Source of the DNA: Alphaproteobacteria bacterium
GTDB taxonomy: Bacteria; Pseudomonadota; Alphaproteobacteria; Micropepsales; Micropepsaceae
Length of the DNA: 64,000 nt
Direction of reading: 5' to 3'
Assembly: GCA_016792785.1 (NCBI GenBank)
Contig: JAEUML010000226.1
Location: forward strand, 1-64,000
The position numbers and the translations under genes are program-made. The notes beneath the pieces were generated by a model. That model worked only from the letters and a program-made list of their open reading frames with translations. It ran no database searches and was not told the origin of the DNA. This document shows, piece after piece, positions 11,407-25,311 of this stretch (positions are counted from its first letter, which is position 1; each line of letters begins with the position of its first letter).

Positions 11407-13341
11407 TTAGAACCTGAACGTCGAGCGCAGCGTTCCGAAGAAGATGTCCTGTTGTTCAAACTCGATCTGCGTGGCGTCGCCGGTTTGTCCTGAGCGGTGG
11501 GCGACGGGATGCGTGTCGCTCTCACCGTATTCAACGCCCAGCGACAGATCGAGCCCCTTCGTTCCCGGTGGCGCGTAGGCGATTGCGGCGCCGATCTTGT
11601 AGCCGAACGTCGTGTCGTCCTTGCCGACGCGAACGGCCTGGGCGTCGCTGACGAAACCGGTGAGATCCAGGCGATCGTGACCTTCGGCATCCAGGAAGTT
11701 CACGCCGACCTCGACGTTGCTTCGAATGCGGATGCCGGAAAATTCGCCGGCGTATCTGACGGCGCTGTTCCACAGACGATCGACGGGAACTTCGACGGCG
11801 CCCTTGACGAACAGCCCAACCTTGCGTGTGTCGACGTCGGTTGAGTACCGAAAATCGGTTAGGAAGCCGGGAATGCTTCCGGTCAGAACGTCCGTGGTGT
11901 CGAGGTCCGCGAACGACAACCCCGCCCCCAACGTCACGGCGCCGCAATCGTATTCGGATCTCTGATCGATGCCCAACCGAACGCCCTGCCACTCGCCGTG
12001 ATGACGGTAGTCGATACCTTCAACATCGTTGAACGCCGGGTTCGCGAAGAACACGCCCGCGGGAAACATGGAGGTCAGGTCGCCGGTGCCCGGAATGCCG
12101 ACGCCTTCGGTCGTGGTGACGATATCCGGCGCATCCGCACGGATGCCGTATCTCAGGGTACCGAGTTCGGCGGAGACGAGCCACCGTTGGCGCGTCGGAT
12201 TGCCGATCTTTGGACCCGAACTACCGAAAGCGTAGGCTCCGTTTAATCCCACAGATGCGATCGTGTCTGTGCGATCCAAGGCGACGACGCCAAGTCTGAG
12301 GTTGCCGCCGACTTCGGTCGAGAGATACGGCTTGTCCGGGATTGTCAGTTCGCCGATGGCGACTTCGGTGCCGAGCGTCCAGCCGCCCGGAATCCAGCCG
12401 ACTTCTTTGCCTTCGTTCGAGCAGTCGACGATGGGCGTGCTCTGGATGAGCCTGCGCGTCGTCTCGATCACTTCGATCGTCCTTTGGCGATCGGCGATCA
12501 GGATTTCGGTCTGGTGAATCTCGTAGTCCATCGAGGTCAACCAGTGGCTTTCGACTTTTCGCTGCTCAAGCTCTGCGCGCCGGGTCCGCAGTTGGGCGAT
12601 GTAGGCCTCGTTGGCCTCGATTTCCGTTTTGGCTTTGGCGATTTCGGGCGGGATTAGGGCAAGTACCGCGTTCATTTCCTGTTGCGAGCAATAGTGCTTG
12701 GAGAGCGGCGGGATGTTGATGGCCTTGAACGGCGGGCGGGTCAGCCCCTTCAGCGGATCGACCGGTGGTGGCGGCGGCGGCGGTGGCGGCGGCTGAACAG
12801 GTGGCTGATTGCCGCCGATAACTTCGATCTCAGTCTTCGTCGGCGCGGCCGGCGCACAATTGCGCTCCGGCTTGGCTTTGAGCTCCGCGTCTCTTTGGTT
12901 GAATTTCTTCTGCAGGCGTTCGGCTTCGAGTTGGTACTTGTTGTCCCGCCAGTAGTTTCGTTCGCGAGGGCTCACGCCGTTGAGCATGAGCTCTTTCTCA
13001 AGCTCGTGATTGCCGGCGAGAAAGTCCTGCAGGCTTTGCTTGTTCGCGCGAAAGCGCGCCATCAGCGCTTGCGTTCGCGCGCCGAACATCTGCATCACGG
13101 AATTGTGCGGGATTTTCATCGGCTCAAGCGGCGGCCGGCAGTATTTCGGCAAGGGTTTGAAATTGTGCATTTCCAGCCAGAGATCCTTCATCTCTTGCCT
13201 GATGCTCTGGAACTCGGCGTCAAACGTGGCCGCGCTGGGCTTGGCCATAGCTGGCGATCCGACGGGCACGATCGCCGTCGCTGAAGCCAGGGCCGTGAAA
13301 AACGTCGCCAAAACGAGAATACGTGGCGGATGGTTCCGCAT
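11407..13341 (-). CDS. Large surface protein: coiled coil, polyproline linker and C-terminal beta-barrel
   Basis: A 644-residue protein. It has a signal peptide (cleavage near AMA). Residues 38-165 are charged and coiled-coil-like (QSIRQEMKDLWLEMHNF, LQKKFNQRDAELKAK). A run of about ten prolines follows near residue 190. A second helical stretch spans about 215-300 (AKTEIEANEAYIAQLRTRRAELEQ). The last 300 residues alternate hydrophobic and polar residues with many aromatics and end in STFRF, the C-terminal Phe signature of outer-membrane barrels. It resembles an autotransporter-like or porin-like protein with a periplasmic stalk. No named family. Function unknown. Confidence 0.6.
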   Translation of the reverse strand: MRNHPPRILVLATFFTALASATAIVPVGSPAMAKPSAATFDAEFQSIRQEMKDLWLEMHNFKPLPKYCRPPLEPMKIPHNSVMQMFGARTQALMARFRANKQSLQDFLAGNHELEKELMLNGVSPRERNYWRDNKYQLEAERLQKKFNQRDAELKAKPERNCAPAAPTKTEIEVIGGNQPPVQPPPPPPPPPPVDPLKGLTRPPFKAINIPPLSKHYCSQQEMNAVLALIPPEIAKAKTEIEANEAYIAQLRTRRAELEQRKVESHWLTSMDYEIHQTEILIADRQRTIEVIETTRRLIQSTPIVDCSNEGKEVGWIPGGWTLGTEVAIGELTIPDKPYLSTEVGGNLRLGVVALDRTDTIASVGLNGAYAFGSSGPKIGNPTRQRWLVSAELGTLRYGIRADAPDIVTTTEGVGIPGTGDLTSMFPAGVFFANPAFNDVEGIDYRHHGEWQGVRLGIDQRSEYDCGAVTLGAGLSFADLDTTDVLTGSIPGFLTDFRYSTDVDTRKVGLFVKGAVEVPVDRLWNSAVRYAGEFSGIRIRSNVEVGVNFLDAEGHDRLDLTGFVSDAQAVRVGKDDTTFGYKIGAAIAYAPPGTKGLDLSLGVEYGESDTHPVAHRSGQTGDATQIEFEQQDIFFGTLRSTFRF

Positions 13342-13915: not shown

Positions 13916-14950
13916 ATGACCGCCGCACATACATCAACTGCTCTGCGCATCGAGCGCGTCGCGCCGGCGCCCTCGCGTGTTCCGTTCGCGGCTGTCGCGA
14001 ACCGGCTTGCGACGGCGCTTCAGCGCACGATCGAGCGGGCGACGGTTGCGGGTGCCGTTCGGGCGCTCGAGTCGGGCGACGGCGAGCAGCTTGCGCGCTA
14101 TCTCGCGCGAGGGCGCGCGATGCATGAACGCTTCAGCATGCCCACCGCTTCGCAGATGTCGGCCGCGATGGAGGGGCTCAGCATCCGACCTTCGGTGCGC
14201 CCAGGCGCGAGTTGGCTCTCGCACGACGACTTCGACGACGACGCGATCTTGGTCTATGTGCACGGCGGGTCTTTCATCGCCGACCGCAGCCCGCGCCTGA
14301 CGGCGATGATCGCGCGTGTGGCGAAGGCCGCGCGGCTGAAGACCTTGATGGTCGACTATCGCTTGGCGCCAGAGCACCCCTGCCCTGCCGCGGTCGACGA
14401 TGTATGCGCGGCACTGAACGACGTCATTGCGAAGGGCCGGCCCGGCCATCGCATCGGCATCGTTGCCGAGTCGGCCGGGGCGGCAATCGCACTCGCCGCG
14501 TGCGCGCGCATGCGCGATGCCGGCGTGACGCTGGGCGCGCTCTGCCTGTTATCGCCGTGGACGGACCTTGCGCTGACCGGCCGCTCCGCCGCGGCGCGGA
14601 GCGTCACGGGCGACAGCCCCATCTCCATGGAGTCGATGGCGATTTGCGCGCATTTCTATTTGCAGGGGATGAGCCCGCTCGATCCGGTCGCGTCACCGGT
14701 CTACGGCGATCTGCGCGCGTTGCCAGCCATGCTGATCCATACCAGCCGCACCGATGCGTTGCACGACGATGCGCGCCTGTTGGCGGAGCGGGTGCACGAC
14801 GCAGGCAGCGACGTCATATTGCGCCTGTGGTCGCGCGGCAGCCACGTGTTTGAGCGGATGTTCGACACGCAGAGCGAGCGGGCAATCGCGGACGCGGGCG
14901 ACTTTCTGCGCCGTCGCTTGAACGGAGCGCGGGGCTTGCGCGCGGACTAG
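13916..14950 (+). CDS. Alpha/beta hydrolase (HSL/bacterial esterase IV-like)
   Basis: A 344-residue protein. The oxyanion-hole motif is HGGS at residue 116 (the family norm is HGGG), and the nucleophile elbow is AESAG with Ser186, where most relatives have DSAG. DYRLAPEHPCPAAVDD follows the family closely. Candidate triad acid and base lie in HTSRTDALHDD and SHVFE. Substrates are probably short-chain esters or lactones. The ATG at 13916 has AAGGA upstream. The last 4 nt overlap the end of the convergent thioesterase gene. Confidence 0.85.
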   Translation: MTAAHTSTALRIERVAPAPSRVPFAAVANRLATALQRTIERATVAGAVRALESGDGEQLARYLARGRAMHERFSMPTASQMSAAMEGLSIRPSVRPGASWLSHDDFDDDAILVYVHGGSFIADRSPRLTAMIARVAKAARLKTLMVDYRLAPEHPCPAAVDDVCAALNDVIAKGRPGHRIGIVAESAGAAIALAACARMRDAGVTLGALCLLSPWTDLALTGRSAAARSVTGDSPISMESMAICAHFYLQGMSPLDPVASPVYGDLRALPAMLIHTSRTDALHDDARLLAERVHDAGSDVILRLWSRGSHVFERMFDTQSERAIADAGDFLRRRLNGARGLRAD

Positions 14951-15441
14951 GCCGACGGCGGGCGCAGGATCATCAGCGTCGAGGTCGCGTTTGCGAACAG
15001 GCGGTCGTTCTTGTCGATTAAGTTCGCCTCCGCGGTGACGATGTCGCGGCCGCGTGTGATGACTTTCGCCGTTGCGGTCAGGCGGCCGGACTTTACGGTG
15101 ACCGCGCGGTGGTATTTGAGTTCGAGCGTCAGCGTCGTGAAGCCCTGCCCCGCCTTCAGCGTCGAGTGCACGGCCGAGCCCATGACGATGTCGATGACGG
15201 TCGCTATGACACCGCCGTGCACAGTGCCGAGCGCGTTGTAGTGGAACTCCGCCGGCTCGAAGCCGACGGAGACCTTGCCCTTCTCGGCCACGAAGTCCCC
15301 GACGCCGATGAGGCTGCCCACGGGCGGCGGGGGCACACGGCCCTCTGCCATCGCGCGCAGGAGGTCGAGGCCGGCGAGGCCCTCCGCCGCCTTTGCGATG
15401 TCGGCGGGGTCCGCCCAGCGGTATGTCCGTTCGTTGCGCAT
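14947..15441 (-). CDS. PaaI-type hotdog thioesterase
   Basis: A 164-residue protein. The hotdog signature is NALGTVHGGVIATVIDIVMG, followed by TLELKYHRAV. These enzymes hydrolyse acyl-CoA thioesters, often aromatic or medium-chain, in the cytoplasm. I start at ATG 15441 (MRNERTYRW), since the much longer frame back to 16077 covers the penicillin-acylase gene on the other strand and has no family character. It converges on the esterase gene with a 4-nt overlap. Confidence 0.82.
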   Translation of the reverse strand: MRNERTYRWADPADIAKAAEGLAGLDLLRAMAEGRVPPPPVGSLIGVGDFVAEKGKVSVGFEPAEFHYNALGTVHGGVIATVIDIVMGSAVHSTLKAGQGFTTLTLELKYHRAVTVKSGRLTATAKVITRGRDIVTAEANLIDKNDRLFANATSTLMILRPPSA

Positions 15442-15606
15442 GTGCCCTCGGTCAGGATTGAAGCCGGTTGACCATGCGGGGCGCGCACTTCCCGCGGCAA
15501 GAGGGCTGACATTCCTGCTTCTCCGCCTATCTGCCCTACTCTCTTGCATCCACGCGAGGGACGGCGGCGTATAGGACCGTCGGCATTTTTCGGGGTTCGG
15601 GTCCAT

Positions 15607-17874
15607 ATGCGCGCGATTGCACAGTTTGTTGTTGTGGTTGGAGTGGTTCTGGGCGTCGCGAGTTGCGCGGTGTTCACACCGTTGCCCGAGCCGCGGACGC
15701 TGGAGCAGCGGCTGGCGATGCTTCCGACGAAGGGTCTCCCGGTCGGTGCGCCTGTGACGGTGTGGTGGAACGAGCGGCACGTGCCGTTCATCGAAGCCGC
15801 GAGCGACCGCGATGCGGCATTCACGCTGGGGCTCGTGCATGCGCATTTGCGGCTTGGACAGATGGAGGTGATGCGGCGGGTTTCGCAAGCGCGCATCTCC
15901 GAGATGGCGGGGCCCATCCCGCAAGTCGGCGACATCGAGCATGCGCTGCGCATCCTCAATCTCGGCAAGACATCGAGCGCGGTCTATGCCGCGATGCCCG
16001 CCGACACGAAGGCGTGGCTCGACGCCTTCGTCGAGGGCGTCAATTTCTATCAAGCGAACGCGACGGAGCTGCCGCACGAATATGCACTGCTTGGCCTCGA
16101 TAGGGAGCCGTGGCGGAGCGAGGAGATTCTGACCATCGGGCGGCTCGCCTCGGTCGACGTGTCGTGGCTCGTCTGGATCCGGCTGATGCCGCTACGCGAA
16201 CGCGAGGACTGGCCCGATCTGTGGCGGCAGGTTTTGGAAGAGGGAACCACGTCGGCGCCGAGCTTCGCTTGGACGTCGAGCAACGCAGCGAACGAGTTCT
16301 CGCGCCTGCTCTCGACGATGAGCCGCACGGGATCGAATTCGATGGCGGTCTCGGCCGCGAAGACCGGCACGGGCGCCGCGATGATCGCAAGCGATCCGCA
16401 TCTTGGCATCAGTCTGCCCAACCTTTGGGTTCTGGCCGGCGTGAAGTCGCCTTCGTACAACATGGTGGGCTTCATGGTGCCGGGCGTGCCCTTCGTCGCG
16501 GTCGGGCGGAACGAGAACATCGCCTGGGGCGGCACGAACATGCGTTCGGCCGGCAGCGATCTCTTCGACGTGAGCGGCTTGCCCGCGGACCAGATCAACG
16601 AGCGCACGGTCTCGGTCGAGACGCGCTGGTGGTTCGATTCGGAATACAAGATTCGCGAAACACCCTATGGACCCATCTTGTCGGATGCGGCGCTCCTGCC
16701 GAAGCGCCAGGGGGATCAATTCGCCTTGCGCTGGATCGGGCACTATCCGTCGGACGAATTCACCGCGATGCTGCGCGTCAACCGCGCGAAAGATTGGAAC
16801 GAGTTCCGTTCGGCGCTCGAGGGCTTTTCGATCTCACCGCAGAACTTCGTCTATGCGGACGTGCGCGGCAATATCGGACAAGTGACCGCAACGCACTTGC
16901 CGAAGCGGTCGAAAGAACTGCCGAAGGATTTGATCCGGCCGCTTTCGGACGCGGCCGCCTGGGACGAGATCGTGACGTCGCGCGACCTGCCGTCATCCTT
17001 TAATCCAAAGGAGGGGTTCCTGGCATCGGCCAACAACCGCGGTGCGGAGGCGCAGATTCCGATCGGCTATTTCTTCTCGGCCGACGACCGCGTGACGCGG
17101 ATGCAGGAACTGCTCGGCGCCAAGGCGCGCGTCACAGTCGACGATCTGAAGCGCGTGCAGATGGATACTTATTCGCGCTCGTCGGTGGCAATGCGCGATG
17201 CCTTCGTCGCGCGCATCCGGCGCGAGACGCCGGAGCTTTCGGCCGAGCAGTCGCGTATCGTCGAGCGCATCGCGGCGTGGAACGGCCGCTATGACCGCGA
17301 CAATGCGGACGCCGTGGCGTTCGAGGCAACGATGGCGGCGTTCATGCCGGCTGCCTTCGCGGCGGAGGAAATACTCGCGTTCGATGCGGCGGGCAGCGCC
17401 TATGCGCGTGTGGCAGGGCAAGTCGCCGCAATCGACGGCGCGAAGTTTCGCGCGGCGCTGGTCGAAGGGCTGAAAGCGGCGGAGACGGCGGTCAAAACCT
17501 ATGCCGCCTGGGGCGACATGCACCGGATGGTCGTGCAAGCGCAGTTCGCGGCGATCCCGGTCATCGGCGGGCGCTATGTGTTCGACGATGTGCCGGCTGC
17601 GGGATCGAGCGAGACGCTGCTCAAGACCGACCACGACACCTCGGCCGAGAGGCATCCGACGCGTTATGGCGCGCAGGCGCGGCATGTGTCGGACCTGTCG
17701 GACCCGGACGCGAATTGGTTCGTCATGCTGGGCGGCAACGACGGATGGTACAATTCCTCGACGTTCCGCGATCAAGTGGAGTCGTTCCAACGTGGGACGT
17801 CCTACCAGGTGCCGCTGAAGATCGACAGTGTGCGCGCGTCGTTCAAACACAAGACCGTTCTCAACGCCCCATGA
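15607..17874 (+). CDS. Penicillin acylase family (Ntn-hydrolase) lipoprotein
   Basis: A 755-residue protein. It starts with a lipoprotein signal, with the lipobox cysteine at residue 20 (LGVASC). The Ntn-hydrolase nucleophile is probably Ser243 in TGSNSMAVS, where the precursor would be cut between alpha and beta chains. The following ASDPHLGISLPNLW and the VGRNENIAWGGTN segment fit the family. Members cleave amide bonds of penicillins, cephalosporins, acyl-homoserine lactones or other N-acyl compounds, in the periplasm. The stop overlaps the GH3 start (ATGA), so the two are coupled. The substrate cannot be told. Confidence 0.88.
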   Translation: MRAIAQFVVVVGVVLGVASCAVFTPLPEPRTLEQRLAMLPTKGLPVGAPVTVWWNERHVPFIEAASDRDAAFTLGLVHAHLRLGQMEVMRRVSQARISEMAGPIPQVGDIEHALRILNLGKTSSAVYAAMPADTKAWLDAFVEGVNFYQANATELPHEYALLGLDREPWRSEEILTIGRLASVDVSWLVWIRLMPLREREDWPDLWRQVLEEGTTSAPSFAWTSSNAANEFSRLLSTMSRTGSNSMAVSAAKTGTGAAMIASDPHLGISLPNLWVLAGVKSPSYNMVGFMVPGVPFVAVGRNENIAWGGTNMRSAGSDLFDVSGLPADQINERTVSVETRWWFDSEYKIRETPYGPILSDAALLPKRQGDQFALRWIGHYPSDEFTAMLRVNRAKDWNEFRSALEGFSISPQNFVYADVRGNIGQVTATHLPKRSKELPKDLIRPLSDAAAWDEIVTSRDLPSSFNPKEGFLASANNRGAEAQIPIGYFFSADDRVTRMQELLGAKARVTVDDLKRVQMDTYSRSSVAMRDAFVARIRRETPELSAEQSRIVERIAAWNGRYDRDNADAVAFEATMAAFMPAAFAAEEILAFDAAGSAYARVAGQVAAIDGAKFRAALVEGLKAAETAVKTYAAWGDMHRMVVQAQFAAIPVIGGRYVFDDVPAAGSSETLLKTDHDTSAERHPTRYGAQARHVSDLSDPDANWFVMLGGNDGWYNSSTFRDQVESFQRGTSYQVPLKIDSVRASFKHKTVLNAP

Positions 17875-19385
17875 TGGACTTCACGCCGGCGCTGAAACTG
17901 TTTGCGCGGCGGCGTCGGGCGCATCTTGCGCGGCTCGACAATGTGGCGGCTCAGGAACGGCAACTCGCGAAGCTGGTCGCGAAGGCCAAGGGTACGAAAT
18001 TCGGGCGGGATCACGGGTTCGACCGCATCAAGACCGTCGCCGACTTCCAGGCGGCGGTGCCGCTCCGGCGTTACGACGATTTCTGGAAGGCGTATTGGAA
18101 ACCTGCGTTTCCGGTGATCGAGAACGTCACCTGGCCGGGGCGTGTGCCCTATTTCGCCGTGACTTCCGGCACGACCGCCGGCGCGTCGAAGTACATTCCG
18201 GTGACAGCCGACATGAACCGCTCGAACACGCTTGCGGGTCTCGACCTGCTGACGCATCACGTGACGGCGCGGCCCAAGTCACGCGTCTTCGGCGGCAAGA
18301 GTTTCATGCTGGGCGGTTCGACCGACCTTGTGCGCGAAGCGAACGGCGTGTTCTCCGGCGACCTTTCGGGCATTGCGATCAAGCGGCTGCCGTGGTGGGC
18401 GCGGCAGTTCGCGTTCCCGCCGATCGAGCTCGCGCTGATCACGGACTGGGAAGAGAAGGTGCGGCGGCTCGCGACGCTGTCGGTCGAGAGCGACATTCGC
18501 GTGATCACGGGCACGCCGTCGTGGCTCTTGATCTTGTTCGATCGGCAACAGGCGAACGCCGGGCGGCCGGTAAGCGCGCGGGAGCTTTATCCGAACCTCG
18601 AAATGCTGGTGCACGGTGGGGTCAACTTCAAACCGTATCGTGCGCGGTTTGAGCAGTTCCTGGCCGGCGGCGCGGAGCTGCGCGAGGTTTATCCCGCGTC
18701 CGAGGGATTCATCGCGCTTCAGGACGAGCGACCCGAGGACGGGTTGCGGCTGCTCACTGACACGGGGCTCTTCTTCGAATTCGTTCCGGTCGAGGAACTC
18801 GATTCGCCGAACCCCACGCGCCACTGGATCGGCAACGCCGAGGCGGGAGTGAATTACACGATCGTGTTGTCAACGTGCTCAGGATGCTGGGGTTACGTGA
18901 TCGGCGACACGGTGAGGTTCGTGTCGCTGAACCCGCCGCGGCTGCTGATCACGGGGCGTACGAGCTATTCGCTGTCGGCGTTCGGCGAGCATCTGATCGG
19001 TGAGGAGATCGAAGACGCGGTTGCTGCAGCCGCGGCGGCGGGCGGTTTGACGGTGACCGATTTCTCCGTGGGCGCCGTTTATCCCAAGGCTGCCGGCGAA
19101 CTCGGCGGGCATTTGTACATCGTCGAATTCGAGGCCCTGCCCTCCTCCGCCGCGGGGGCGGCATTCGCCAAAGCGATCGACGAGACGCTGAAAGCGCGCA
19201 ACGACGACTATCGCGCGCACCGGTCGGACGGGTTCGGAATGCACGCGCCCGACGTTCGTGCGGTGCCGCCTGGGACCTTCGCACGGTGGATGAAATCGCG
19301 CGGGCGCATGGGCGGCCAGAATAAAGTGCCGCGCATCATCAACGATCAGCAGCTGTTCCACGACCTCGTGCACTTTACGGCGTGA
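17871..19385 (+). CDS. GH3 family acyl-adenylate/amide synthetase-like protein
   Basis: A 504-residue protein. The nucleotide-binding motif is seen in FAVTSGTTAGASKYIPVT. YPASEGFIALQDE and LITGRTSYSLSAFGEHL further match the GH3 fold, an adenylating enzyme family that in plants conjugates amino acids to jasmonate, auxin or benzoates. Bacterial members are poorly characterised. It starts at ATG 17871 (a second ATG at 17874), overlapping the penicillin-acylase stop by 4 nt. The coupling of a ligase that may form amide bonds with a hydrolase that may cut them is suggestive. Confidence 0.85.
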   Translation: MMDFTPALKLFARRRRAHLARLDNVAAQERQLAKLVAKAKGTKFGRDHGFDRIKTVADFQAAVPLRRYDDFWKAYWKPAFPVIENVTWPGRVPYFAVTSGTTAGASKYIPVTADMNRSNTLAGLDLLTHHVTARPKSRVFGGKSFMLGGSTDLVREANGVFSGDLSGIAIKRLPWWARQFAFPPIELALITDWEEKVRRLATLSVESDIRVITGTPSWLLILFDRQQANAGRPVSARELYPNLEMLVHGGVNFKPYRARFEQFLAGGAELREVYPASEGFIALQDERPEDGLRLLTDTGLFFEFVPVEELDSPNPTRHWIGNAEAGVNYTIVLSTCSGCWGYVIGDTVRFVSLNPPRLLITGRTSYSLSAFGEHLIGEEIEDAVAAAAAAGGLTVTDFSVGAVYPKAAGELGGHLYIVEFEALPSSAAGAAFAKAIDETLKARNDDYRAHRSDGFGMHAPDVRAVPPGTFARWMKSRGRMGGQNKVPRIINDQQLFHDLVHFTA

Positions 19386-19398
19386 AAGCCTTTCGGGC

Positions 19399-20334
19399 AT
19401 GGTGCCCCGCCTCACACGCGGGATGGTTCGCTTGCAAGCCCTGTTCATCGGCCAGACCTATATCGACATTACGTTCCTGACCGACTCCATACCGACCGGC
19501 GACGAGAAGACCGTCGCACGCGACTATGCGGTCGCTTTCGGCGGCAACGCGGTAACGGCCGCGTTCGCGTGCGCGAAACTTGGGATCGTGCCCGATCTTT
19601 TGACGACGATGGCCGACGATTGGCTGGGGCGGATGTTCATGGACATGGCGGCGGCCTATCGCATTCCCCTGCACGCGCGCAAAGTCGCCCGGTCGTCGCT
19701 GTCGTTCATCATGCCGAACGACGGCAAGCGCGCGATCGTGCGCTGCCGCGACGATCACTATCTACATCCGTTTCCGACGCTCAATCTCGACGGCTGCAAG
19801 GTGCTGCATCTCGACGGGCATCAACCGGATGCGGCGATGACCTATGCGAAGCTTGCACGCGAACGCGGCGTGCTGGTATCGCTGGACGGCGGCGGCGTGC
19901 GCGCGAACACGATGGAGTTGCTCGATTTCGTGGACGTTGCGATCGTCGGCGAACGGTTTTGCGAGCAGCTGCAGAAGACGCCCGAGCAAGTGCTTCAGTT
20001 GCTGCGGGAGCGGGGCTGCCGTGTCGGCGGCGTGACGTTGGGCGAGCGCGGCCTGCTTTGGTTTGAGGCGGGGGCAGAGACACGGTTGATGCCGGCGCTG
20101 CGCGTACCGGAAGACCGGGTGATCGACACGAACGGCGCGGGAGACCTTTTCCACGGCGCCTATGTCTACTCGTGGCTGAGCCGGCCGCAGGCGCGGTGGG
20201 AATTCCATTTCCGTTTCGCCCGGGCAGCCTCGGCCTATGGGGTGCAGCATTTAGGCAATGAGGCGCGACTGCCACGGCCCAGCGACGTGTTTGCAACAGC
20301 GGAATCTTTCGGGGACGCGCTGCAGCCCACTTGA
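19399..20334 (+). CDS. PfkB-family carbohydrate kinase
   Basis: A 311-residue protein from ATG 19399, or 303 residues from ATG 19423. The N-terminal FGGNAVTAAFACAKLG matches the first PfkB signature, and the C-terminal signature DTNGAGDLFHGAYVYSW holds the catalytic aspartate in GAGD. These kinases phosphorylate sugars or nucleosides; the substrate cannot be read here. It sits 13 nt after the GH3 gene, so the two are likely one transcript. Its relation to acyl metabolism is unclear. Confidence 0.85.
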   Translation: MVPRLTRGMVRLQALFIGQTYIDITFLTDSIPTGDEKTVARDYAVAFGGNAVTAAFACAKLGIVPDLLTTMADDWLGRMFMDMAAAYRIPLHARKVARSSLSFIMPNDGKRAIVRCRDDHYLHPFPTLNLDGCKVLHLDGHQPDAAMTYAKLARERGVLVSLDGGGVRANTMELLDFVDVAIVGERFCEQLQKTPEQVLQLLRERGCRVGGVTLGERGLLWFEAGAETRLMPALRVPEDRVIDTNGAGDLFHGAYVYSWLSRPQARWEFHFRFARAASAYGVQHLGNEARLPRPSDVFATAESFGDALQPT

Positions 20335-20348
20335 AAGGGCTGGAAGAA

Positions 20349-20361
20349 TGACAATTTGTCA
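20349..20361. promoter_or_regulatory. Palindrome TGACAA-T-TTGTCA
   Basis: A perfect 6-bp inverted repeat around a single T, 42 nt before the chosen start of the COQ4-like gene. TTGAAA at 20331-20336 could be a -35 element just upstream, with no good -10. The form suits a dimeric regulator, but no regulator gene is near. Confidence 0.4.
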
Positions 20362-20403
20362 GTTATGAAAGCGACGTCACTGTCGGCTCGCCCGAGGGTC
20401 CTC

Positions 20404-21192
20404 ATGTCTCTTGCCGAAACCTACTTGCCAGAAGTTTCCCGTACCACGCCCGCCATCGACGAGCGGCCGTTTCGTATGCAGCCGCTGAAGGCGCTGCGCG
20501 CGCTCAGCCGGCTGCTCAAGGACAAGGAAGACACGGCGCAAGTGTTCGAGATCATGCGCGCGCTTTCCGGACGCTCGATCCCAAACGGCTATTCGCGGCT
20601 GATTTCCACGCCGACCGGCGGGACGATTGCGTTCCGGCATCAGGAACTCGCCGACATATTGTCGGATCAGGCGTTCTTGTCGCGTCTGCCGGAAGGCAGC
20701 GTCGGACGCGCCTATCTCAACTTTACAACCAGCGAGAACATCTCGGCCCAGGGCCTTATCGAAGAGAGCCGCAAAGGTATCGACGAGACAATCGACAGTG
20801 CGCATCCCTACGCTTGGTACGGACGGCGTCTGCGCGACATCCACGACCTGTGGCATGTGCTCACTGGTTATGGCCGCGATGCGCTCGGTGAGACATGCAT
20901 CGTCGCGTTCTCCTACGCGCAGACGAAGTCGCATGGATTTGGACTTATCGCGGCGGCGGGGGCGTTGAAGCTGCGCTCCGAGGTGAAGGGCTATCCGTTC
21001 GCCAAGGCTGTTTGGCAAGCCTATCGCAACGGGCGCAAGGCCGCGTGGTTGCCGGGCGAGGATTATGTCCGGCTGCTGAGCGAAGATTTGGCCACCGCAC
21101 GGGCGCGGCTGAACATCGCGCGGCCGACGGTCTATGACGCCATCCCCTCAAGCGTCCGCAACGGCAACGGCGAGATGATCGCCGCCGCCTGA
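20404..21192 (+). CDS. COQ4 family protein (ubiquinone biosynthesis)
   Basis: A 262-residue protein. The COQ4 zinc motif HDxxH-x11-E is intact (RDIHDLWHVLTGYGRDALGE). The upstream ERPFRMQPLKALRALSRLL and EDTAQVFEIMRALSG also fit the family. Eukaryotic COQ4 is needed for coenzyme Q assembly and has been linked to oxidative decarboxylation of the ring carbon; bacterial members presumably do something comparable. ATG 20404 has GAGGG upstream; in-frame starts at 20356 (TTG) and 20365 (ATG) are also possible. It lies among acyl-metabolism genes, not with other ubi genes. Confidence 0.85.
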   Translation: MSLAETYLPEVSRTTPAIDERPFRMQPLKALRALSRLLKDKEDTAQVFEIMRALSGRSIPNGYSRLISTPTGGTIAFRHQELADILSDQAFLSRLPEGSVGRAYLNFTTSENISAQGLIEESRKGIDETIDSAHPYAWYGRRLRDIHDLWHVLTGYGRDALGETCIVAFSYAQTKSHGFGLIAAAGALKLRSEVKGYPFAKAVWQAYRNGRKAAWLPGEDYVRLLSEDLATARARLNIARPTVYDAIPSSVRNGNGEMIAAA

Positions 21193-21267
21193 CGGCCGGC
21201 CGCTTGCAATCGCCGTCCGAAGCGTCCCACAGTTCTCGAACGCTTAGACATTCGAGGACGACGACGC

Positions 21268-22068
21268 ATGAGCTACTCAACGATCAAATTCGACAGCCAG
21301 GCCCCCGTCGCGGTGATCACGCTGAACCGGCCCGAGCGGCTCAACGCGTGGACGCCCAAGATGAGCGAAGAGATGGCGGACGCCATCGAACGCGCGAACG
21401 GCGACCGCTCGATCGGCGCGATCGTGGTGACCGGCGAGGGGCGCGGGTTCTGCGCCGGGGCCGATATCGAAAGCACGTTCAAGTCGCGGATCGACGGTCA
21501 GGATCCGGGTTCCAATACTTCGCAAGGCCAAGGCGGGTTGCCACGGGGGCTCGATTGGATCGGACTCGTTCGGTCGTCGAAGCCTTTGATCGCAGCCGTC
21601 AACGGGCCCGCGGTCGGGATCGGCGTGACGATGATCCTGCCGTTCGACATTATCGTGGCTTCGGAGCTTGCCAAGTTCGGACTTGCTTTCGTGAAGATGG
21701 GCATCGTGCCCGAACTTGCGTCGAGCCACTTCCTGATCAGCCGTGTCGGTTGGGGCAAGGCTAGCGAACTTATGCTCACTGCGCGGCTGATCGACGGGCG
21801 CGAGGCCGAGGCGTGCGGTCTTGCGCAATATGTCACGCCGCACGAGGGCCTGATGCCCAAAGCCTATGAATTGGGCAAAGCGATGTCGGCCAATCCCGAC
21901 CCGATGTTGCGCATGACCAAGGATTTGCTCTCGAAGAACGCGTGCGAGCAGGACATGGCGCTGGCGCAGAAGCGGGAGACGGACTACTTGCGCGCGTGTT
22001 GGGCAACCGCCGAACACAAAGAGGCGGTGCAGGCGTTTCTGGACAAACGGCCCGCCCGTTTCAGATAG
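21268..22068 (+). CDS. Enoyl-CoA hydratase/isomerase (crotonase) family protein
   Basis: A 266-residue protein. The CoA/oxyanion loops are seen in GEGRGFCAGADIESTF and KPLIAAVNGPAVGIGVTM, and FVKMGIVPELASSHFL carries a glutamate in the usual catalytic region. Members hydrate enoyl-CoAs or catalyse related reactions in beta-oxidation; the precise substrate is open. A GAGGACGACGACGC stretch precedes the ATG. The KASIII-like gene that follows starts within about 45 nt, so they probably belong together. Confidence 0.88.
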   Translation: MSYSTIKFDSQAPVAVITLNRPERLNAWTPKMSEEMADAIERANGDRSIGAIVVTGEGRGFCAGADIESTFKSRIDGQDPGSNTSQGQGGLPRGLDWIGLVRSSKPLIAAVNGPAVGIGVTMILPFDIIVASELAKFGLAFVKMGIVPELASSHFLISRVGWGKASELMLTARLIDGREAEACGLAQYVTPHEGLMPKAYELGKAMSANPDPMLRMTKDLLSKNACEQDMALAQKRETDYLRACWATAEHKEAVQAFLDKRPARFR

Positions 22069-22111
22069 TATGGGACCTAAGCGTTCGGGGGCGCATGGTA
22101 AACGGGTCCCC

Positions 22112-23167
22112 ATGGTTTCGCGTATGCAAGACGTATCCATCGTTGCGACGGCCAGCATCTTGCCGGAGACCGTCGTCACCAACCGCGATATCGGCCAGCG
22201 GCTGATCGACGGCGCGCACGCGCGCAACGTGCGCGACGCCGATGCCGAGGCGACGGCGCGGGCGCGATCGGAACTGATCGAGCAGAAGACCGGATTGCGC
22301 GCGCGGCGGTTTTTCAACGCCGAGGACACGCCGGTCGAGATCGGCACGACGCTGCTCGAGAAGTTGATGGGCGAGAGCGATTGGGCGGCGTTGGACGCGG
22401 TCATCGTCTCCTCTTCGTCGACGCAGGGGTTTCCGGGCTTGTCGCAGCAGATCGTCGTGACGGCACGCGAGCGGCATGGGGCGCTGGCGCATCCCTTCGT
22501 GCTCGATATTTCGAGCAACGCGTGCACAAGCTTCATGTATGCGCTAACCGTGGGCAAAAGCTTGATCCTGGCGATGGGCTATCGCCGGGTCGCGTGTCTT
22601 GCGATCGAGTTCTCGTCGCGCTGCATTGCGTATGATCCGAAGGCATTCGGGATTTCGACGTTGTTCGGCGACGCGGCGGCCGGCGTGCTGCTCGAAGGCG
22701 GGGCGAAGGGCATCGCCGTGCTGAAATCGACGCGCGCTTCGTCGATGGTCGATCCGGGCACGATCGCGCTCATCAAGGGCAGCGGCATGCAGGCGAACGA
22801 TCCTTCGCGCGACGTGCCGATGGATCAGCGCTGGTACATGGCGGGGCCGCCGGTTGCGGTCGGGGCCACGCGCATTCTGGTCGACGAAATCCGACGCACG
22901 CAGGCGGAAGGTCACGCGATCGACTGGCTGATCCCGCATCAGGCGAATTTGACGCGCATTCTTATCCCCGCGTGCAAATCAGCGGGGATCGACCCGAAGC
23001 GGCTCTGCGCCTCGTTCGCGGAGACCGGCAACACGTCGAGTGCCAGCATTCCGCTCTTGCTCGATCAACTCGTGCGCGACGGGCGCGCGCAGAAGGGCGA
23101 GAACGCGCTCCTCATCGGGTTCGGCGCGAGTTTTTCGGTTGGGTCGGCGCTGCTGACGTTCAGTTGA
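22112..23167 (+). CDS. 3-oxoacyl-ACP synthase III (FabH-like ketosynthase)
   Basis: A 351-residue protein with an intact thiolase-fold triad: Cys138 in SSNACTSF, His276 in IPHQAN, and Asn307 in ETGNTSSASIP. The alignment of these motifs fits KASIII enzymes that condense an acyl-CoA starter with malonyl-ACP; related enzymes make hydrocarbons or secondary metabolites. The reading frame can extend back to ATG 22070, overlapping the crotonase end, or start at 22124; I chose 22112. It may be a specialised, non-housekeeping ketosynthase, since other fatty-acid synthesis genes are absent here. Confidence 0.87.
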   Translation: MVSRMQDVSIVATASILPETVVTNRDIGQRLIDGAHARNVRDADAEATARARSELIEQKTGLRARRFFNAEDTPVEIGTTLLEKLMGESDWAALDAVIVSSSSTQGFPGLSQQIVVTARERHGALAHPFVLDISSNACTSFMYALTVGKSLILAMGYRRVACLAIEFSSRCIAYDPKAFGISTLFGDAAAGVLLEGGAKGIAVLKSTRASSMVDPGTIALIKGSGMQANDPSRDVPMDQRWYMAGPPVAVGATRILVDEIRRTQAEGHAIDWLIPHQANLTRILIPACKSAGIDPKRLCASFAETGNTSSASIPLLLDQLVRDGRAQKGENALLIGFGASFSVGSALLTFS

Positions 23168-23173
23168 GCGTCG

Positions 23174-23881
23174 TCAGTCGGGCCACGGGAGCTGCGGCAA
23201 GCTTTTCATAGTGATCTTGATCTCCCGCCCACCTGTGCGGCATGCGATGGCGCCCGTGTAGCCCGACGCTGGCTTAAAGGTCGCGAGACGCCACCTATCC
23301 GGTGAATCACCATCGATGCGTTGCACGGCGGCGACCTCATCGCTCGCGAGCGAGACATCGAAGCTGTCGAGGGGATGCGAGAGCCCGTCGCCGATCGCTT
23401 TGACGACCGCTTCCTTACGCGTCCAACAGCGGAAGAACGCCTCGGTCTGCAAGTCCGCGGGCAAGGCGCGCAGCGCAGCCACTTCCGCAGGGGAGAAGAA
23501 ACGACCGGCGATGTCCTCCTTCAAAGGCCTGACGCATTCGACATCGACTCCGATTTCGTGCGCGCGTGTAATGCCGAGAGCTGCCGTGCTCTGCGAATGA
23601 GTGAGGTTGAACTTCTCGGCGCAGCCCTCAAGCGACGGCTTGCCGTGCGCCGCATACGAGAACCGCAGCGCTTCGGGCTCGCGTTTCGTCACCCGCGCCA
23701 AGATCTCGCGCAATCGCCCGCGCGCTACGATAAATCGGTGGCGATCGCGCTCGAACACCAGACGCTCCGCCCGCGCGGTTTCGTCATGGGAGAGCAAGCG
23801 TGCCAGTCTCAGGCGCTCGCTTTCGTCGACGTCAAGCGACCAAACGTAAAGATCGATCTCGACCGGGTTGCCCGCGCTCAT
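23174..23881 (-). CDS. 4'-phosphopantetheinyl transferase (Sfp-like)
   Basis: A 235-residue protein. The motif GVDVECVRPL and the downstream FFRCWTRKEAVVKAIGDGL are the magnesium-binding and CoA-binding signatures of Sfp-type transferases, which activate carrier proteins of polyketide, peptide or fatty-acid systems. The ATG overlaps the ManC gene by 4 nt, so it is co-transcribed with a sugar nucleotide gene. It lies tail-to-tail with the KASIII gene, separated by 6 nt. No carrier protein is seen in the window. Confidence 0.88.
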   Translation of the reverse strand: MSAGNPVEIDLYVWSLDVDESERLRLARLLSHDETARAERLVFERDRHRFIVARGRLREILARVTKREPEALRFSYAAHGKPSLEGCAEKFNLTHSQSTAALGITRAHEIGVDVECVRPLKEDIAGRFFSPAEVAALRALPADLQTEAFFRCWTRKEAVVKAIGDGLSHPLDSFDVSLASDEVAAVQRIDGDSPDRWRLATFKPASGYTGAIACRTGGREIKITMKSLPQLPWPD

Positions 23882-25311
23882 TTCGCGGGTGTACGCCCGT
23901 ATCGGTCGTCAAAGCGCACGATGTCATCTTCACCGAGGTAGCCGCCGGTCTGCACCTCGATTAGCTGCAACGGGATGCGCCCTTGGTTTTCCAGCCGGTG
24001 CTTTACGCCCACGGGGATGAAGGTCGATTGGTTTTCGTAGAGGTGAAAGACCTCGTCTCCCCGCGTCACCTTGCCGGTGCCACTCACCACGATCCAATGC
24101 TCCGAACGGTGATGGTGCAATTGCAGGCTCAAGCTGGCGCCTGGGTTCACGGTGATCAGCTTCACCTGATGGCGCACACCCTCATCGATGCTTTGATACT
24201 TGCCCCAGGGCCGGTGCGTGACCGTGTTCTCGCGTGCTTCTTTGCGATCTTTGGCTTTGAGTTGATCGACGACCTTTCGCACGTCCTGCGCGCGATCTTT
24301 CGCGACGACCAGAACAGCATCGTCGGTCGTCACCACGATCACATCCTCCAACCCGACGACGGCAGTCAACCGCGCGTCCGAGCGCACAAGACAGCCGCGT
24401 GCGTCCTGCACGACTACATCGCCGGAAATTGCGTTGTCATTGTCGTCTTGCGGCAGCGCCTCCCATATCGCCGACCACGACCCCAAGTCGCTCCAATCCG
24501 AGGCGAGCGGACAAATTGCGGCCCGTGCCGTTCGCTCCATGACCGCATAATCGATCGAAATATTCGGCGATTGCGCCAGGGCGCCTTTGTCGAGTCGAAG
24601 GAAGCCTAGATCGCGCTGCGCCTTGTCGACGGCTTCCTGCGTCGCGGCCATGATCTTAGGTTCGAACGCCTTCAACTCAGCCAGCAGTACCTGCGGGCGG
24701 AACATGAACATACCACTGTTCCAAACGTGGCCGCCTTGAGCGAGCAGCTGTTCGGCCTTTGCGTGATCCGGCTTCTCGACAAATTTTGCGACCCGCATGC
24801 AGCCCTCGGCGTGCTCGAGCTTGTCGCCAATGCGAATGTAGCCGTACTCGGTCGCCGCGTGCATCGGCGCCACGCCGAATGTCATCAGATGATCTGCGTT
24901 GGCTCCACCGGCCGCGACCGCGACCGAAGAACGAAATCCGGCGACATCGCGGATCACGTGATCCGAAGGCAGCAAGAGGACGAGCGCGGTTGGGTCAGAG
25001 CGCTCACTGATCAGCGCCCCGACCGCCGCTGCGGCCGCCGAGTTGCGTGCAACCGGCTCGAGTACAATTTCCGCACCCTCGATCCCGGCTTCGCGCACCT
25101 GCTCAGAGATCAGGAAACGATACTGGTCGTTGCACACGATGATGGGCGGCAGGAACTGATCCGACGCAACGCGCAATAGCGTCTGTTGCAGCAGCGAGCG
25201 CTCGGAGACGAGGGGCAGCAACTGCTTAGGTACGGCTTCGCGCGACAGCGGCCACAGTCTGACACCGCTTCCTCCCGCAAGCACAACCGGGCGAATTTTC
25301 GACTGCCCCAT
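23878..25311 (-). CDS. manC: Mannose-1-phosphate guanylyltransferase / mannose-6-phosphate isomerase (bifunctional)
   Basis: A 477-residue protein, typical of the fused type. The N-terminal pyrophosphorylase signature GGSGVRLWPLS is at residues 13-23. The C-terminal cupin holds the metal-binding HHHRSEHWIVV region, which is the isomerase domain. It makes GDP-mannose from fructose-6-phosphate-derived mannose-6-phosphate once a phosphomannomutase is present, which is not seen here. GDP-mannose would feed the EPS glycosyltransferases. The gene is separated from the O-ligase-like gene by a 128-nt gap that contains a terminator-like hairpin. Confidence 0.9.
   Translation of the reverse strand: MGQSKIRPVVLAGGSGVRLWPLSREAVPKQLLPLVSERSLLQQTLLRVASDQFLPPIIVCNDQYRFLISEQVREAGIEGAEIVLEPVARNSAAAAAVGALISERSDPTALVLLLPSDHVIRDVAGFRSSVAVAAGGANADHLMTFGVAPMHAATEYGYIRIGDKLEHAEGCMRVAKFVEKPDHAKAEQLLAQGGHVWNSGMFMFRPQVLLAELKAFEPKIMAATQEAVDKAQRDLGFLRLDKGALAQSPNISIDYAVMERTARAAICPLASDWSDLGSWSAIWEALPQDDNDNAISGDVVVQDARGCLVRSDARLTAVVGLEDVIVVTTDDAVLVVAKDRAQDVRKVVDQLKAKDRKEARENTVTHRPWGKYQSIDEGVRHQVKLITVNPGASLSLQLHHHRSEHWIVVSGTGKVTRGDEVFHLYENQSTFIPVGVKHRLENQGRIPLQLIEVQTGGYLGEDDIVRFDDRYGRTPAK

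Follow-up and report, generated by a model that had tools for sequence, protein, structure and literature searches.

A conserved acylase–GH3 ligase gene pair of Alphaproteobacteria as a candidate module for making and breaking N-acyl amides

Both enzyme families considered here, GH3-type ligases and penicillin-amidase-type Ntn acylases, are already known. GH3 ligases usually form amides and not acyl-CoA, and the plant representatives JAR1 and GH3.15 use hormone or other acids as substrates. Among the acylases, PvdQ and MacQ are AHL acylases with long N-acyl substrates, PvdQ being an exported enzyme, and the D-succinylase of Cupriavidus acts on N-succinyl amino acids. A publication of 2025 introduced a GH3 lipid ligase: OlsH of Singulisphaera acidiphila is an experimentally characterized N-acyl-ornithine synthetase and its partner OlsI is an acyltransferase with a hydrolase fold (PMC12493201). 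The same publication leaves open which amino acid is used by bacterial GH3 proteins outside planctomycetes and allows that OlsH homologues there could use other amino acids (PMC12493201). In the literature searched, mostly papers available without subscription, no published description of an acylase–GH3 pair was found.

The DNA analysed here (the window, 64,000 nucleotides) stems from a draft alphaproteobacterial genome of 3.96 Mb that is 93% complete. An initial annotation had read seven of its genes as one acyl-metabolism run that could make and recycle an acyl-amide. All genes lie where they had been placed and the Pfam assignments agree with the families proposed:

15607–17874, + strand: penicillin-amidase-family Ntn acylase, predicted lipoprotein (PF01804, 455.7 bits)
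17871–19385, + strand: GH3-family acyl-acid amido synthetase, putative N-acyl amino acid ligase (PF03321/PF23571/PF23572)
19399–20334, + strand: PfkB-family kinase, opening a separate genus-level block (PF00294, 85.2 bits)
20356–21192, + strand: COQ4-like protein, same separate block as PfkB (PF05019, 64.8 bits)
21268–22068, + strand: crotonase/enoyl-CoA hydratase family protein, same block as PfkB (PF00378, 171.7 bits)
22070–23167, + strand: divergent KASIII, same block as PfkB (PF08541/PF08545)
23174–23881, − strand: Sfp/HetI-type phosphopantetheinyl transferase (PPTase; PF01648, 79.7 bits)

The run consists of two separate modules and one bystander. Of the initial reading, the coupling of ligase and hydrolase is retained, and the placement of KASIII, crotonase, PfkB, COQ4 and PPTase in one pathway with them finds no support. 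The 4-nt overlap of acylase stop and GH3 start (ATGA) is present as described, and an alternative in-frame ATG at 17874 would shorten it to 1 nt. A promoter and terminator scan gave no excess above shuffled sequence.

The GH3 protein is the single GH3 match in the source genome. Pfam detects all three domains of the family (N, M and C), and the adenylation motifs TSGTTAGASK, VYPASEG and VIGD are present. Plant GH3 amide synthetases occupy ranks 1–23 of the Foldseek matches to its structure model (mean pLDDT 86.1), with PaaK-type ligases ranking after them. Domains, adenylation motifs and fold all place the protein in the GH3 family, at 15–19% identity to the plant enzymes in structural alignments. 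With OlsH it shares the GH3 ligase type, the same three nucleotide-binding motifs and a hydrolase-type gene nearby, and the serine of its first motif is equivalent to OlsH S115, which is required for OlsH activity; its partner, however, is a predicted exported Ntn acylase where OlsI is an alpha/beta-hydrolase, and the source genome carries an OlsB-like gene (comparison with PMC12493201). No alpha/beta-hydrolase gene adjoins the GH3 gene; one is located at 13916–14950, on the upstream side past both the acylase gene and that of a thioesterase.

The acylase gives a full-length profile match to PF01804 (residues 49–742). Its N-terminus carries a lipobox, VASC, with Cys20 as the predicted lipidation cysteine, and the protein is predicted to be an exported envelope enzyme. 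By a simple rule, 51 of the 71 relatives with a readable N-terminus have a lipobox behind a hydrophobic stretch, eight acylases with cut N-termini being left out; among the 20 that fail the rule, a Cys motif is visible by eye in L036, L097 and L207 and is absent from most others. Ser243, the predicted nucleophile, aligns with residue 1 of the beta-chain of solved acylases. Counting only rows with the respective column filled among 80 aligned rows, window protein included, S243 is conserved in 76/76, H265 in 77/77, N476 in 78/78 and R495 in 78/78; we take the catalytic roles of the latter three residues from the penicillin-amidase family, and by alignment the catalytic residues are intact. The closest fold to the acylase model (mean pLDDT 85.3) is that of the Cupriavidus D-succinylase (7ea4, 7eby; Z 42.7 and 23–24% identity over 678–682 residues), from which the window enzyme may differ in its predicted lipoprotein nature and in the coupling of its gene to a ligase gene. 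The Ntn penicillin-acylase fold is likewise shared with MacQ (Z 33.6) and PvdQ (Z about 24–26), and isopenicillin N acyltransferase, an Ntn-type acyltransferase, is among the structural matches (Z 26.4 over 340 residues).

Adjacency of acylase and GH3 recurs far above chance. GH3 loci were drawn from order relatives (20 fetched), 40 class loci and the best 80 of 541 named loci, and 143 GH3 proteins were reduced to 120 after dropping 23 near-copies. Crude gene calling in a first neighbour clustering missed GH3 in 11 of 60 loci, so locus maps made by tblastn were relied on. An acylase lies directly upstream of GH3 on the same strand in 76 of the 120 non-redundant loci, which are mostly alphaproteobacterial; of the remainder, 3 have an acylase nearby in a different arrangement, 35 are without one nearby and 6 are undecidable. 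The gap, measured between tblastn matches, is at most 60 bp in 58 of the 76 linked loci. GH3 matches were obtained in 25 of the 96 genomes of the order; 22 of these matches are complete or almost complete, two are fragments at contig ends and one is at chance level. Of the 20 fetched loci, 16 have the acylase directly upstream on the same strand. Named taxa with the linked pair include Roseospira marina, Caenispirillum salinarum, Inquilinus limosus, Belnapia and Desertibaculum; in Stella and a Kordiimonadales strain GH3 is unlinked to the acylase. The pair is also found in a few MAGs labelled Desulfofustis, Terriglobia and Gammaproteobacteria, for which misbinning is possible. In the GH3 tree the linked rows are dispersed, with 23 label changes compared with 35.7 in shuffled labellings (none of 500 being as low), from which we infer that the pairing is old and has been lost many times, on a tree that is midpoint-rooted and has a weak root.

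No other neighbour recurs class-wide beside GH3, where just small genus-level clusters are seen, and inspection by eye of 20 acylase loci gave no recurrent partner around the acylase; L233, one of these loci, is linked to GH3 at a contig end. Tandem GH3 genes occur in the genomes of L077 and L103 (L166 is a record of the latter genome). No acylase gene is seen next to either tandem, the upstream side of L077 being cut by a contig end, and both genomes encode an acylase elsewhere.

Co-occurrence was assessed in a class sample of 386 genomes, with GH3 counted at E below 1e-100 and acylase at E ≤ 1e-90; nine of 58 GH3 matches were dropped as weak, leaving 49 GH3-positive genomes, and 58 of the 386 genomes are acylase-positive. 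The acylase is present in 41/49 GH3-positive genomes and in 17/337 others (Fisher p 1.6e-33, phylogeny ignored), the latter being the 17 genomes with acylase and without GH3. Eight GH3-positive genomes are without an acylase match at this threshold, one of which, G294, has a contig-end fragment. In ten genomes (G153, G166, G256, G258, G268, G269, G342, G353, G412 and G475; nine GH3 loci fetched, G258 assigned by contig number) the two genes are not seen side by side and the acylase lies elsewhere. GH3 occurs in 27 families, and in 23 of these at least one sampled genome has the acylase. Within the order, a close acylase (≥250 bits) is found in 21 of 96 genomes, 19 of which have GH3; the other two are 63% and 74% complete. 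Pairwise distances of acylase and GH3 correlate with r 0.81 over 69 linked pairs, compared with at most 0.23 in 999 permutations (phylogeny ignored); common ancestry contributes to this correlation as well. Seven of the 76 linked pairs, with short or broken acylases, were left out. Synteny, co-occurrence and co-variation thus back the coupling of ligase and hydrolase. As to gene order across relatives, which the initial annotation had offered as a check on its proposal, the two-gene acylase–GH3 unit is conserved and a six-gene unit is not.

The PfkB, COQ4, crotonase and KASIII genes form a separate genus-level block that neighbours the pair. Their order is the same in seven genomes including the source, with KASIII cut by the contig end in three. 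KASIII has Cys152, His290 and Asn321, presumably its catalytic triad, and among the 96 order genomes its matches above 50% identity are confined to its own genus (g1) and G095, which belongs to another genus. Four other members of the genus have the block with no pair immediately ahead of it: a thioesterase gene lies directly 5' of PfkB in G092, G094 and G087, and in G090 PfkB is preceded by an alpha/beta-hydrolase gene, with the pair about 5 kb off. GH3 directly before PfkB looks like a recent rearrangement. In the window, a hormone-sensitive-lipase-type hydrolase gene (13916–14950) and a PaaI-type thioesterase gene (14947–15471) are convergent and overlap by 4 nt, and one or both of these gene types adjoin the KASIII block in several relatives. 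Further upstream, 11407–13341 (− strand) encodes a protein of 644 aa that contains a long proline run and, by eye, looks autotransporter-like; it is 32–33% alike in two relatives, its neighbours 64–85%.

The PPTase is a convergent bystander coupled to manC (23878–25311), which it overlaps by 4 nt on the strand opposite to the run. It was not found at KASIII loci that extend past its position (L117–L123 and L125). The segment 23878–31072 (− strand) appears to be an exopolysaccharide operon, with manC, a GNAT/FemAB-like gene and, by eye, an O-antigen-ligase-like gene.

That all seven genes would make or recycle one acyl-amide can hardly be the case. The single strand and short gaps of all genes except the PPTase would fit such a cluster, as would the sister genome G085 (L116), in which GH3 again directly precedes the block on a contig that starts at GH3 with the acylase out of view, and G089, in which contig ends are consistent with the order GH3-PfkB-COQ4-crotonase-KASIII. 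However, PfkB and COQ4 accompany GH3 at 1 of 118 loci from relatives (L029, a genome of the same genus), and neither KASIII nor PPTase was found at any of the 118, within a reach of at most about 10 kb per side and often less; this speaks against a carrier-protein-based cluster, which would call for a ketosynthase and a PPTase conserved with the ligase. In addition, genomes G088 and G093 have a KASIII orthologue and no GH3. A six-gene pathway was rejected on these counts, on the confinement of KASIII matches above 50% identity to two genera and on the four genomes in which the pair does not directly precede the block. Distant crotonases (26–29% identity) at four other GH3 loci would also fit the full cluster and are read as members of a common family; they adjoin the pair at L113 and L188 and lie elsewhere in the locus at L177 and L207. 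The crotonase genes of L113 (4871–9674) and L188 (7–4807), from two related genomes, encode proteins with 26% identity to that of the window and immediately precede the pair in the same orientation.

We hypothesize, at slightly less than even confidence, that 15607–19385 is a two-gene module making and breaking N-acyl amides. As its family and fold suggest, the GH3 enzyme would act in the cytoplasm, adenylating a fatty acid with ATP and coupling it with either an amino acid or an amine, to yield an N-acyl amino acid or lyso-amino lipid that would then arrive at the envelope. There, the predicted lipoprotein acylase, whose sequence shows an export signal and the catalytic residues, would cleave itself before Ser243 and hydrolyse the GH3 product or a close relative beyond the inner membrane. 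Synthesis and cleavage in different compartments would avoid a futile cycle and could let the pair turn over or release an exported acyl-amide. Counting against this module are the 35 GH3 loci without an acylase nearby, the eight GH3-positive genomes without an acylase match, the 17 acylase-only genomes, the 20 acylases that fail the lipobox rule and a somewhat higher frequency of LuxI in acylase-positive genomes.

The identity of this compound can be approached through OlsH, OlsB and LuxI. It is rather improbable that the GH3 enzyme makes N-acyl-ornithine, with the Ntn acylase replacing OlsI as second-step O-acyltransferase. This reading draws on the experimental precedent of OlsH and OlsI introduced above, on the isopenicillin N acyltransferase among the structural matches of the acylase and on the GH3 protein itself, which passes the OlsH model NF052613 (lyso-ornithine lipid/N-acyl-ornithine synthetase) marginally, at 628.3 bits against a cut-off of 620. 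The cut-off is reached, however, by none of the 27 other aligned GH3 relatives (E 3e-186 used as a stand-in for 620 bits), and the acylase export signal would lead away from cytoplasmic acyl donors. Moreover, OlsB is present in 47/49 GH3-positive genomes (47 being read by eye from a table) compared with 198/337 others, an excess that may be due in part to many small GH3-less genomes, and the OlsB-like gene of the source genome scores 319.7 bits against a cut-off of 320. Since OlsB accompanies GH3 in 47 of 49 genomes, GH3 is no replacement for it, a role that was rejected on this ground, and ornithine lipid can be made without GH3.

A scavenging role is unlikely as well, if somewhat less so: the exported acylase would cut foreign N-acyl compounds (N-acyl amino acids, lipopeptides or AHLs) and GH3 would activate or re-conjugate the freed acid, with no single endogenous metabolite involved. 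The gene order, acylase then ligase, the acylase export signal and the fold in common with MacQ and PvdQ are in keeping with this, as is a weak excess of LuxI with the acylase (16/58 acylase-positive genomes and 43/328 others, p 0.009, phylogeny ignored; 8/17 acylase-only genomes, several of one genus), so that AHLs may be substrates in some genomes. LuxI is not associated with GH3, however (9/49 GH3-positive genomes, 50/337 others, p 0.53), the PvdQ equivalog model NF051460 gives the acylase 30.5 against a cut-off of 950, and GH3 ligases, as their family and the fold ranking indicate, normally build amides and not acyl-CoA. On the PvdQ score and the missing GH3–LuxI association, a function of the pair in quenching AHL signals was rejected. 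Elsewhere in the source genome, two LuxR-LuxI-like pairs are found (L212 G000:C318 and L213 G000:C55), whose LuxI-like genes are over the PF00765 cut-off and below the specific AHL synthase cut-offs.

Together, the OlsH, OlsB and LuxI results favour, with modest confidence, an N-acyl amino acid or amino lipid not made by OlsB as the common compound of the pair. More tentatively than for the module as such, we propose a class-wide transmembrane cycle in which GH3 would make this N-acyl amino acid or amino lipid in the cytoplasm and the co-encoded lipoprotein acylase would deacylate it in the envelope, resulting in turnover of a membrane amino lipid other than the ornithine lipid made by OlsB, or in release of a masked compound. 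The side-by-side conservation of the two genes points to a hitherto unstudied fatty amino-acid cycle. The conserved hydrolase partner offers a handle on it, as the compound accumulating without the acylase should be the GH3 product. If this is true, two enzymes of opposing action, one forming amides and the other cleaving them, would have been kept adjacent across a class, which is unusual.
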